Program-made: the position numbers and the translations under genes | Part shown: positions 5,201 through 35,553 of the stretch, piece after piece | How positions within the stretch are numbered: position 1 is the first letter of the stretch | Layout of the letters: each line of letters begins with the position of its first letter | The notes under the pieces: generated by a model | What the model was told of the DNA's origin: nothing | The model's database searches: none | The model's input: the letters and a program-made list of their open reading frames with translations, nothing else | NCBI GenBank assembly: GCA_016192915.1 | Contig: JACPTF010000007.1 | Location: 1-38,622, forward strand | Length of the DNA stretch: 38,622 nucleotides | Direction: 5' to 3' | Source of the DNA: Candidatus Woesearchaeota archaeon | Lineage (GTDB): Archaea; Nanobdellota; Nanobdellia; Woesearchaeales; UBA10216

Positions 5201-5339
5201 GGGCCCATAGTTCAGCTTGGCTAGAACGCCGCACAACCTTTTTGCAAGCAAAAAGCTTGACCAAAAAGATGGGCGAGTCTGATATTCGGTTAGCGAATCA
5301 GCCAGGCGGAGGTCCTCGGTTCAAGTCCGAGTGGGCCCA
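5201..5339 (+). tRNA. tRNA-Ile(GAT) with two introns
   Basis: The acceptor arms are GGGCCCA (5201-5207) and TGGGCCC (5332-5338), with A73. D-stem GTTC/GAAC, T-arm CTCGG-TTCAAGT-CCGAG (5315-5331). A consistent mature tRNA appears only if two introns are removed. One is about 5233-5277 (45 nt, near position 30/31) with hairpin CTTTTTG-CAAG-CAAAAAG. The other is about 5285-5303 (19 nt, at 37/38). This leaves anticodon loop CTGATAA (GAT at 5281-5283) and stem CCGCT/GGCGG. Exact splice sites are inferred by eye. The 3' end cuts into the frame of the convergent iminopeptidase gene. Confidence 0.88.
5233..5277 (+). repeat. Family B hairpin forming the first tRNA-Ile intron
   Basis: ACAACCTTTTTG, then CAAG, then CAAAAAGCTTGACCAAAAAG. 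The stem CTTTTTG/CAAAAAG (5238-5244, 5249-5255) and the trailing GCTTGACCAAAAA match the tRNA-Glu and tRNA-Arg anticodon-loop introns and the free copy near 19052. Confidence 0.65.
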
Positions 5340-9617: not shown

Positions 9618-9671
9618 TTTTTGTTAAAAAGGTTGAGCGAGCCCGCCGGGACTTCCTCACTGGCGTTCGGA

Positions 9672-9721
9672 GCACAAATCGCTGATGCGATTGTGCCCAG
9701 TCGGTTTTGCACCGACTTGGG
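9672..9721. repeat. Family A element inside the tRNA-Arg T-loop intron
   Basis: GCACAAATCGC-TGAT-GCGATTGTGC (9672-9696) followed by CCCAGTCGGT...ACCGACTTGGG (9696-9721). It occupies most of the 91-nt intron. Confidence 0.78.
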
Positions 9722-9796
9722 CATTAGCGCCGGGCGCCAATATTTGAACCCAGATCAATCGGTTACAGCCCTTTTCCCCGCTGCTGCGGGCAAAAG

Positions 9797-9894
9797 CCCA
9801 AGACGCTTTACGGCGTCTGGGCCCAGTCGAGCGCAATTCCGCGAGGAGCGGAATGCGCAATCGGGCGTCCCCCGATTTGCGCTCTCGACTTGGG
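9797..9894. repeat. Family A element, nested copy, inside the tRNA-Arg anticodon intron
   Basis: The outer hairpins are CCCAAGACGC/GCGTCTGGG (9797-9821) and CCCAGTCGAG (9822-9831) with CTCGACTTGGG (9884-9894). The second loop holds an inner double hairpin: GCGCAATTCCGC/GCGGAATGCGC and GCGCAATCGGG/CCCGATTTGCGC (9831-9882). Confidence 0.8.
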
Positions 9895-9921
9895 CGCTGG
9901 CGGAAAAACGCTACTGTTACG

Positions 9922-9972
9922 TATCGTTTTTTGGTCCAGCTTTTTGCCGGCCGCTGCCGGGAAAAAGATGGT
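9922..9972 (-). repeat. Family B-like sequence at the 5' end of the tRNA-Arg anticodon intron
   Basis: On the minus strand the intron starts ACCATCTTTTTC, continues through a GC-rich hairpin, then CAAAAAGCTGGACCAAAAAA. It matches the tRNA-Glu and tRNA-Ile introns in order and wording. Confidence 0.6.
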
Positions 9973-10057
9973 CCGAAGCCGATCGCACTGTCCGGATTGT
10001 GCTACAGGCCCGTGCCTGACTAACCCTGACCACTATTTAAAGTTATGGCGAATCACA

Positions 10058-18984: not shown

Positions 18985-19051
18985 AGTTCACACACCTCTT
19001 AAACGCACTTACACTGCTTCTTCACAACTTATGTTTTTAAATGTTTCGCAT

Positions 19052-19097
19052 GACCTTTTTTGCTCACTGCGGTTTGCAAAAAAGCTCAACCAAAAAC
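19052..19097 (+). repeat. Free-standing family B hairpin
   Basis: GACCTTTTTTGC, a 12-nt loop, GCAAAAAAGCTCAACCAAAAAC. The stem CTTTTTTGC/GCAAAAAAG is perfect (19055-19063, 19076-19084). The trailing GCTCAACCAAAAA matches the family B tRNA introns, but no tRNA exons flank it here. Confidence 0.65.
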
Positions 19098-23053: not shown

Positions 23054-23113
23054 GCGGCATGGCAAGCACGAGCCACAACAAGGTTTTTATTGTTATCGGG
23101 CATAACAGCAATT

Positions 23114-23851
23114 ATGGCAGAGCACGGCGGCAGGGGCAGCGGTCACGATAACGAAATTGCAGGAGCAAAGTTCCGCGAGGTTGAAGACCTGAAGAAGCTA
23201 AGCCCTGATGAAAGGATAAGGCGGCTCAAGGAGCTTGAGGAAGAACGAAAAAAAGAGATTGAACAAGCAGAAGAGCTCATAAAAGAGTCAGTCAGGGAGA
23301 TTGCGGATGCAGAGGAAAAGAAAAAGATACCAATCCCCCAAGCAAGGGCAACAGAATTATCCTCCCTGACAACAGCCGAAGAAAAGCAGGTTGTTGCAAC
23401 ACATCACCTATTGGCAACTGAAACAACAGCAGTAACGCCACAATCGCAGCAGCAAAAAAGCCTTGAGGAAGTCACAGCAGAAGAAGCAAGGGCGCAGCCA
23501 CAAACAGAACAAGAACAACAGCATGACCTTTTAGGAAAAGGTCAATCAAAATTCCAAAAGCCCGAATATGCGCTTGGTACAGAACAGCAGCGCTCAGCAT
23601 TTGGCGAATACCTGTCAAAATCGCAGCAAACAGTAACCGGAAGCGGCACGAGGCCCGGCAGCAGCGAGCTCGAGAAGATTACGGAAATTTACAAGGATAG
23701 GGCAGTAACAGGAGCCGAGGCAGGGGATGCGCAGCAAAAATATTTCGGCACGCACCAGCAGGTAACCGGCGGGTACGAAACAAGAAAAAGAGAAGAAGAA
23801 GAAAAAAAGGTGCAGGACGAGTCGCAAAAGCGAAGAGCCGGACCCGCATGA
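23114..23851 (+). CDS. Low-complexity Glu/Gln-rich coiled-coil protein (module gene 2)
   Basis: A 245-residue protein. Residues 20-75 form a strongly charged coiled coil (ERIRRLKELEEERKKEIEQ), the middle is Thr/Gln-rich and probably disordered, and the tail is Lys/Glu/Arg-rich (TRKREEEEKKVQDESQKRR). No domain recognised. The ATG at 23114 is preferred over an upstream TTG, and a TATA-like TTTTTATTG lies about 25 bp before it. It stands between the 508-residue protein and the TIM-barrel protein, and probably works as a linker or scaffold with them. Confidence 0.6.
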   Translation: MAEHGGRGSGHDNEIAGAKFREVEDLKKLSPDERIRRLKELEEERKKEIEQAEELIKESVREIADAEEKKKIPIPQARATELSSLTTAEEKQVVATHHLLATETTAVTPQSQQQKSLEEVTAEEARAQPQTEQEQQHDLLGKGQSKFQKPEYALGTEQQRSAFGEYLSKSQQTVTGSGTRPGSSELEKITEIYKDRAVTGAEAGDAQQKYFGTHQQVTGGYETRKREEEEKKVQDESQKRRAGPA

Positions 23852-35257: not shown

Positions 35258-35331
35258 TTGCAGCAACCTTTAAAAACACCGTTCTAGTCCGTTTTTTGGA
35301 TAAACCCTTTTCCCATAAAGGCAGTCGGTTT

Positions 35332-35358
35332 TTGATTGACCTTTTTGTGAAAAAGGTC
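35332..35358 (+). repeat. Leader hairpin before tRNA-Glu, shared with tRNA-Asn
   Basis: TTGATTGACC is followed by a short loop and GGTC, closing the hairpin GACCTTTTT-GTG-AAAAAGGTC 2 nt before the tRNA. The tRNA-Asn leader has the same TTGATTGACC (4935-4944) and GGTCA (5059-5063) ends, but a family A array fills the loop. Confidence 0.6.
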
Positions 35359-35360
35359 AC

Positions 35361-35553
35361 GCCCCGTTCGTTCAGTCCGGTCAAGGACACGGCCCTTTCG
35401 CACGACCTTTTTTGGCGCGGCAAAAAAGCTCGACCAAAAAATCCATAAAACGTGGAGAAAGGCCGGGACCCGGGTTCAAATCAGCCCTTTTTGCTCAGCG
35501 CGCTTCGCAAAAAGCCCTGGGGGAAAACGGCTGTGAACGTCCCGGACGGGGCA
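35361..35553 (+). tRNA. tRNA-Glu(TTC) with two 59-nt introns
   Basis: Acceptor GCCCCGT (35361-35367)/ACGGGGC (35546-35552), A73. D-stem GTTC/GGAC, anticodon stem CGGCC (35390-35394)/GGCCG (35461-35465), anticodon TTC at 35397-35399. Intron one is 35401-35459 at 37/38, with ends CACG/CGTG pairing and a central CTTTTTTG-GCGCGG-CAAAAAAG hairpin. The T-arm CCGGG (35470-35474)/CCCGG (35541-35545) carries intron two, 35481-35539, at 59/60, with CAGCC/GGCTG ends and a TTTTTGC/GCAAAAA hairpin. The mature tRNA is regular once both are removed. Confidence 0.9.
35401..35459 (+). repeat. Family B hairpin forming the tRNA-Glu anticodon intron
   Basis: GACCTTTTTTG, GCGCG, CAAAAAAGCTCGACCAAAAAA. It is the closest match to the tRNA-Ile intron (5233-5277) and the free copy (19052-19097). 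The second intron of this tRNA holds a related CTTTTTGC...GCAAAAAG stem (35487-35494, 35507-35514). Confidence 0.65.

Follow-up and report, generated by a model that had tools for sequence, protein, structure and literature searches.

The mechanism by which archaeal tRNA genes gain introns is described as unknown (PMC4090602). In the 38,622 nt of DNA analysed here (the window), part of a woesearchaeal genome of 1.2 Mb that is 93% complete (G000; genomes of the same genus carry handles of this form), the introns of tRNA-Ile, tRNA-Glu and tRNA-Arg contain similar sequence, and the question is whether the introns themselves have jumped or have only acquired something in common. The original prediction took the former view, namely that introns had moved by transposition from one tRNA gene to another and also into intergenic DNA.

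A palindrome in introns and in other DNA

The order of motifs said to be common to the three introns is indeed present, and the coordinates hold (Table 1). The lone copy without tRNA exons, which had been placed at 19052-19097, was found at 19051-19097, where it is separated by 17 nt from the stop of a 132-aa PIN-like ORF, which it follows, and by 66 nt from the start of a 150-aa ORF, which it precedes. The common sequence, family B, is a palindrome of 35-50 nt with the form YRACC-TTTTT-loop-AAAAA-GCT-YR-ACC-AAAAA. Its hairpin, YR-A-C-C-TTTTT ... AAAAA-G-C-T-YR, contains one conserved pyrimidine-C mismatch and is followed by the tail ACC-AAAAA. In a sister form, B', the loop is very short, the C-G pair is complete (GGT) and the tail reads ATC. 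Over both forms the hairpin spans ~10-16 bp, the foot reads YRACC ... GCT-YR or GGT-YR, and the 3' tail is A-rich (ACC/ATC-AAAAA). The base in the stem is linked to that in the tail: among the copies in the genus, all 57 with GCT have the tail ACC, and 52 of the 54 with GGT have ATC. Further family B copies are present in tRNA-Gln and in tRNA trailers, and the intron of tRNA-Thr(CGT) also carries the element, with 38 of 39 nt identical to the tRNA-Ile intron. All of these were overlooked in the original prediction, as were form B' and the copy within an ORF at 23524-23551.

Table 1. Positions of the tRNA genes, introns and palindromic elements in the window
Feature	Position	Strand	Remark
tRNA-Ile(GAU) gene, two introns (30/31, about 37/38)	5201..5339	+	spliced exons 100% identical to genus relatives
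tRNA-Ile intron 30/31	5233..5277	+	predicted bulge-helix-bulge-like junction, CGCC/GGCG helix
Family B element in tRNA-Ile intron	5234..5267	+	pattern matches
tRNA-Arg(UCG) gene, long composite 37/38 intron and T-loop intron	9638..10011	-	
Family D T-loop (59/60) intron of tRNA-Arg	9654..9741	-	copy in tRNA-Val(GAC), C20:48738-48825, outside the window
Family B element, 5' end of tRNA-Arg 37/38 intron	9926..9972	-	
Stand-alone family B element	19051..19097	+	between two minus-strand ORFs
Family B' element, in frame inside ORF 23090-23851	23524..23551	+	peptide QHDLLGKGQSKFQ
Family B' element, antisense, ends 1 nt before tRNA-Glu 5' end	35328..35359	-	
tRNA-Glu(UUC) gene, 37/38 and 59/60 introns	35361..35552	+	
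tRNA-Glu 37/38 intron with family B element (35403-35440)	35401..35459	+	
Family C T-loop (59/60) intron of tRNA-Glu	35481..35539	+	

The objection that such similarity reflects shared low-complexity sequence was addressed with shuffled introns. For six of ten intron pairs the observed similarity was reached by none of 1000 dinucleotide shuffles; the weaker pairs were reached by one (Ile-Arg and Ile-19052), two (19052-Thr) or three (Arg-19052). The core pattern AAAAAGCTN{0,4}ACCAAAA gave four matches in the window against none in 100 dinucleotide shuffles, and the pattern ACC-TTTTT-N-AAAAAGCT-N-ACCAAAA gave 10 matches in the 1.2-Mb genome, with none for the reversed control.

The two arms change together. 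In 25 gapless copies the covariation score of the arms was 0.456, compared with 0.160 when shuffled (a value reached in 0/500 shuffles), and sliding the partner abolished the signal. Arm complementarity, scored on the YR pairs, was seen in 56 of 57 genus B copies and, for B', in 53 of 54, where 32.2 and 34.4, respectively, would be expected if the sides were independent. G-U pairs make up 1.3% of the paired cells in the element against 5.3% in the tRNA stems of the same loci, a comparison in which the cells are not mutually independent and which only favours a palindrome at the DNA level. Few G-U pairs together with covarying arms favour a DNA palindrome; rare G-U would be expected if the palindrome were maintained by both DNA strands or by template copying. 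The loops diverge strongly among copies, unlike those of a freshly copied transposon.

Searches with Rfam covariance models at the gathering score returned the tRNAs as the sole matches within the window, and at none of 10 element loci was the element itself covered by a match; no known Rfam RNA family was identified. A group I intron was likewise rejected, given that the archaeal examples treated in PMC6125680 all lie in rRNA and that an Rfam match is absent here. A K-turn, a self-cleaving ribozyme and a tRNA-like minihelix (suggested by the tail ACCA) were considered by sequence inspection only; B' ends in AUCA, no consensus matched, and none of the three is put forward. No earlier description of the B/B' family was found in the literature searched, of which coverage was partial.

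B and B' are present in 8/8 genomes of the genus, at about 3-37 copies per genome (26 in G000), with none for the reversed control. Copy number is high in G000, G001, G004, G005 and G006 and low in G002, G003 and G007. The relatives' loci match public records of 'Candidatus Woesearchaeota' genomes from groundwater. The B copies lie mostly in tRNA introns or a few bases past tRNA 3' ends, whilst B' is found for the most part within operon spacers, 5' of genes or within ORFs. In the tRNAs and ORFs of the genus the orientation is sense. Beyond the genus, exact copies are patchy, with at least one in 16 of 371 genomes of the phylum (3 of those 16 being in the genus), and many of those outside it are in tRNA introns or tRNA flanks; in other genera, antisense copies occupy tRNA D-loops (L279 and L283).

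Several individual loci are worth recording. Antisense B'-type hairpins stand directly before tRNA 5' ends at 35328-35359 (-), L022 and L070. In three genus genomes the gene for ribosomal protein S13 is preceded by a conserved leader that bears B (L005/L014, L130, L240). In another genus of the same order, the start of B coincides exactly with the 5' boundary of a 16S rRNA intron, following GGATTAGATA (L302). At L068, in another woesearchaeal genome, an apparently complete tRNA copy is preceded by a tandem pair of truncated tRNA 5' parts, both of which end in a family B element in the D-loop. Long composite introns, at about 9690-9900 (-) and at many loci, are assembled from other dispersed palindrome families, such as GCCCAAGTCG...CGACTGGGC.

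Introns and elements at tRNA sites

The tRNA-Ile intron at 5233-5277 interrupts, at a known intron position, an otherwise complete tRNA, whose spliced exons match those of relatives and the tRNA-Ile of G003, which lacks the 30/31 intron, and the predicted fold of the gene retains the acceptor and T stems. The CGCC/GGCG helix is flanked in the sequence by GCA and AGU, as in a bulge-helix-bulge (BHB) junction. The helix is kept in the predicted fold of the intron, where adjoining CA/UG pairing makes the size of the bulge ambiguous. The host is therefore a putative archaeal BHB tRNA intron, for which excision is predicted.

At the corresponding site in the genus, the intron carries B in G000, G004 and G005, B' in G001 and G006 and a degenerate form of the element in G002. 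In G007 the intron is present without the element, and in G003 there is no intron at 30/31. Intron and element thus vary independently, so that B is a passenger, or cargo, and not the intron. In the orthologous Glu, Thr and Ile introns the motif is kept whilst the loops have changed, as in the tRNA-Glu 37/38 intron, whose orthologues in relatives carry B with different loops. A 30-mer of the tRNA-Ile and tRNA-Thr introns is found in other archaeal lineages too; their near-identity is therefore no proof of a recent jump between Ile and Thr.

The original interpretation is thus partly supported. As had been proposed, related sequences have spread between tRNA genes and to DNA beyond them, but only the palindrome is common and the remainder of each intron is unrelated. 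The idea that family B is itself a transposed intron is not favoured, since the element also occurs in protein genes, operon spacers and tRNA trailers. The look-alike introns are mostly unrelated introns with one inserted hairpin in common and, as judged from these sequence comparisons, family B is not evidence that introns as such jumped between genes. This also exposes a trap for claims of intron transposition, in that similarity among tRNA introns can stem from a common insert.

Transfer of introns between tRNA genes, the more general claim, does find support, through family D and not family B. Family D is an 88-nt intron, 95% identical in tRNA-Arg and tRNA-Val(GAC), and these are the sole two full copies in the genus. 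The T-loop site of tRNA-Val has no intron in G001, G002, G006 and G007, and in G003, G004 and G005 it is occupied by other introns; in G006 the T-loop of tRNA-Arg is uninterrupted. On the sequence evidence, family D is a direct case of the transfer of a complete intron between tRNA genes. The family C intron in the T-loop of tRNA-Glu (35481-35539) is, among the relatives seen, present in G000 only, the T-loop of the others being uninterrupted. Its 3' end, GAAC, is complementary to the universal GTTC of the T-arm, and pairing between the two would make an intron of this kind portable.

Among the closely related genomes of this genus, one and the same tRNA site can be found empty, with a bare intron or with an intron bearing either palindrome class, and a complete intron has been copied between two tRNA genes. 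With this series of site states and the copied intron, intron gain becomes directly testable.

Insertions in genes and their flanking repeats

In-frame B/B' inserts were found in CarA, ELP3 and a DnaG-like protein, with Pfam domains confirming the identity of ELP3 and CarA. The ELP3 element is in G004 only, the orthologues of G000, G001, G005, G006 and G007 being empty, and that in CarA is in G000 only and empty in relatives. A third gene has the element, together with a duplicated gene start, in G000 only. A frameshifting intron in ELP3 was considered and rejected, because the full translation gives an in-frame insertion. The peptides of the in-frame inserts are drawn from three reading frames, which indicates that the encoded peptide is not the selected feature; a protein-encoded role for the element was rejected on this ground.

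Flanking direct repeats that end at the site of insertion reached a score of at least 10 in 10.6% of 47 B' copies, compared with 0.5% of flank-swapped controls. With stricter scoring over a longer search range they were seen in 4/46 B' copies, against 1.1%. Among the genus B copies, most of them in tRNA introns or flanks, the stricter scoring found none, and hence no excess of target duplication. Flanking repeats were also scored in 16 of 75 B copies of database loci (0.5% in controls), which is an overestimate, since a few of these repeats are tandem tRNA genes, coding repeats or copies of the element (L050, L074, L093) and the 'other' loci of the database, in this scoring and in the counts of arm complementarity, include some records from the same genus.

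The flanking duplications vary from 9 to about 45 nt. In examples from genes, the first 6-15 codons are repeated and the complete gene lies on the tail side; B' is inserted mostly after CA. At L196, L247, L249 and L181 the element sits between a truncated and a complete copy of the gene start. The two gene-start copies at L196 differ only in third codon positions (six differences), the truncated one seeming the more ancestral.

Competing readings and known systems

The family, its structure, its contexts, its species-specific insertions and the empty sites are directly observed. It is likely that the B/B' copies are very short palindromic insertion elements of DNA, making up one interspersed family. 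A rather unlikely alternative is that the palindrome is a conserved, functional RNA motif, which might for instance assist the folding, cleavage or protection of an intron or spacer, and which has been selected repeatedly in archaeal introns and spacers and is not mobile. The strong covariation of the arms, the linked stem and tail classes, the sense orientation in genus tRNAs and ORFs and the position right at the 5' ends of introns, including that in 16S rRNA, all suit such a motif, and the persistence of the motif in orthologous Glu, Thr and Ile introns with changing loops fits a selected function. However, an RNA motif would sit uneasily with species-specific in-frame insertions that use three frames in protein genes, with the flanking duplications, with an Ile intron that lacks the motif in G007, with antisense D-loop copies in other genera and with G-U pairs rarer than in tRNA stems.

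That whole family B introns were transposed between tRNA genes and into intergenic DNA now seems very improbable. The close match of the Ile and Thr introns and the occurrence of family D transfer in the same genome speak in its favour, but towards the 3' end the introns diverge, each matching its own exons, the intron of tRNA-Ile also occurs without the element, the same 30-mer turns up in other lineages, and stand-alone copies have no intron ends. To the suggestion that the similarity amounts to shared T and A runs we give virtually no credence: although 1-3 of 1000 shuffles reached 4 of the 10 pairwise comparisons, the reversed-pattern controls, empty genome-wide and genus-wide, and the shuffle controls refute it, and low complexity does not account for the strong covariation.

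If B/B' are insertion elements, they would move at the DNA level, by machinery acting in trans. A subset of insertions would duplicate 9-45 nt of the preceding target, and a gene struck near its start would survive by means of the second, complete copy on the tail side of the element. Copies would then persist where they are harmless, namely in existing tRNA or rRNA introns (where they would be removed along with the intron), tRNA trailers, operon spacers and in-frame protein loops or tails. The sense bias may arise because the two T5 runs of the antisense strand would end archaeal transcription. As for movers, a Y1 transposase (PF01797) was not found in G000, nor was a reverse transcriptase (RVT_1) in G000, G001, G004, G005 or G006, these genomes being incomplete; both families occur mainly in genomes with few copies, and both were rejected as movers given that neither was found in G000.

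A bolder proposal, which we hold only tentatively and think doubtful, is that the palindrome actively generates archaeal introns, inserting into tRNA, rRNA and protein genes by a hairpin-based process and becoming a removable BHB intron where the tail-side junction pairs with the exon. Were this so, a single mobile unit dispersed among several archaeal phyla would account for intron gain, for the remodelling of tRNA flanks and for in-frame insertion into proteins.

Among known systems, Rickettsia palindromic elements (RPEs) are short, lack a transposase of their own, and are found between genes and in frame in unrelated protein genes (PMC10969869). B/B' are likewise short palindromes, located both in intergenic DNA and as in-frame inserts in protein genes that are unrelated, with ELP3 and CarA as cases in which relatives are empty. 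In contrast, RPEs are about 100-150 bp with a conserved encoded peptide, whereas B/B' are 35-50 bp, use three frames and also occur in archaeal tRNA and rRNA introns and tRNA flanks. In REP/RAYT palindromes, a small hairpin combines a conserved mismatch with a foot that is single-stranded and likewise conserved. The B/B' hairpin is comparable in its mismatch and foot; it differs in that the cognate Y1 transposase was not found in G000 despite 26 copies, and in that insertions lie within genes and introns besides intergenic DNA. The variable duplications depart from the target duplication of MITEs, whose fixed length is dictated by a parent transposase, and G000, in which RVT_1 was not found, gives no parallel to SINE-like retroelements.

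In the Thermoproteales, tRNA introns have been transposed on a large scale by a mechanism that is unknown (Fujishima 2010, reviewed in PMC4090602, PMC4033280). Similar introns in different tRNAs are seen here too, and family D, at 59/60 of tRNA-Arg and tRNA-Val, is such a case, with near-identical introns and empty orthologous sites. Family B differs in not being a whole intron and in reaching far beyond tRNA genes, and the host here is a groundwater DPANN genus. In the tRNA-Thr of Caldiarchaeum, a 5' fragment of the gene is followed by a mobile insert and the complete gene, the insert being a 1.8-kb element with a predicted recombinase (PMC3293823). The same order of fragment, insert and full gene is found at B/B' loci, but there a palindrome of ~35 nt lies between the duplicated pieces. 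B/B' behaves as a palindromic insertion element whilst departing from RPE, REP/RAYT and MITE in defining features, and what it adds to the known palindromic elements is the use of archaeal tRNA and rRNA introns as landing sites.
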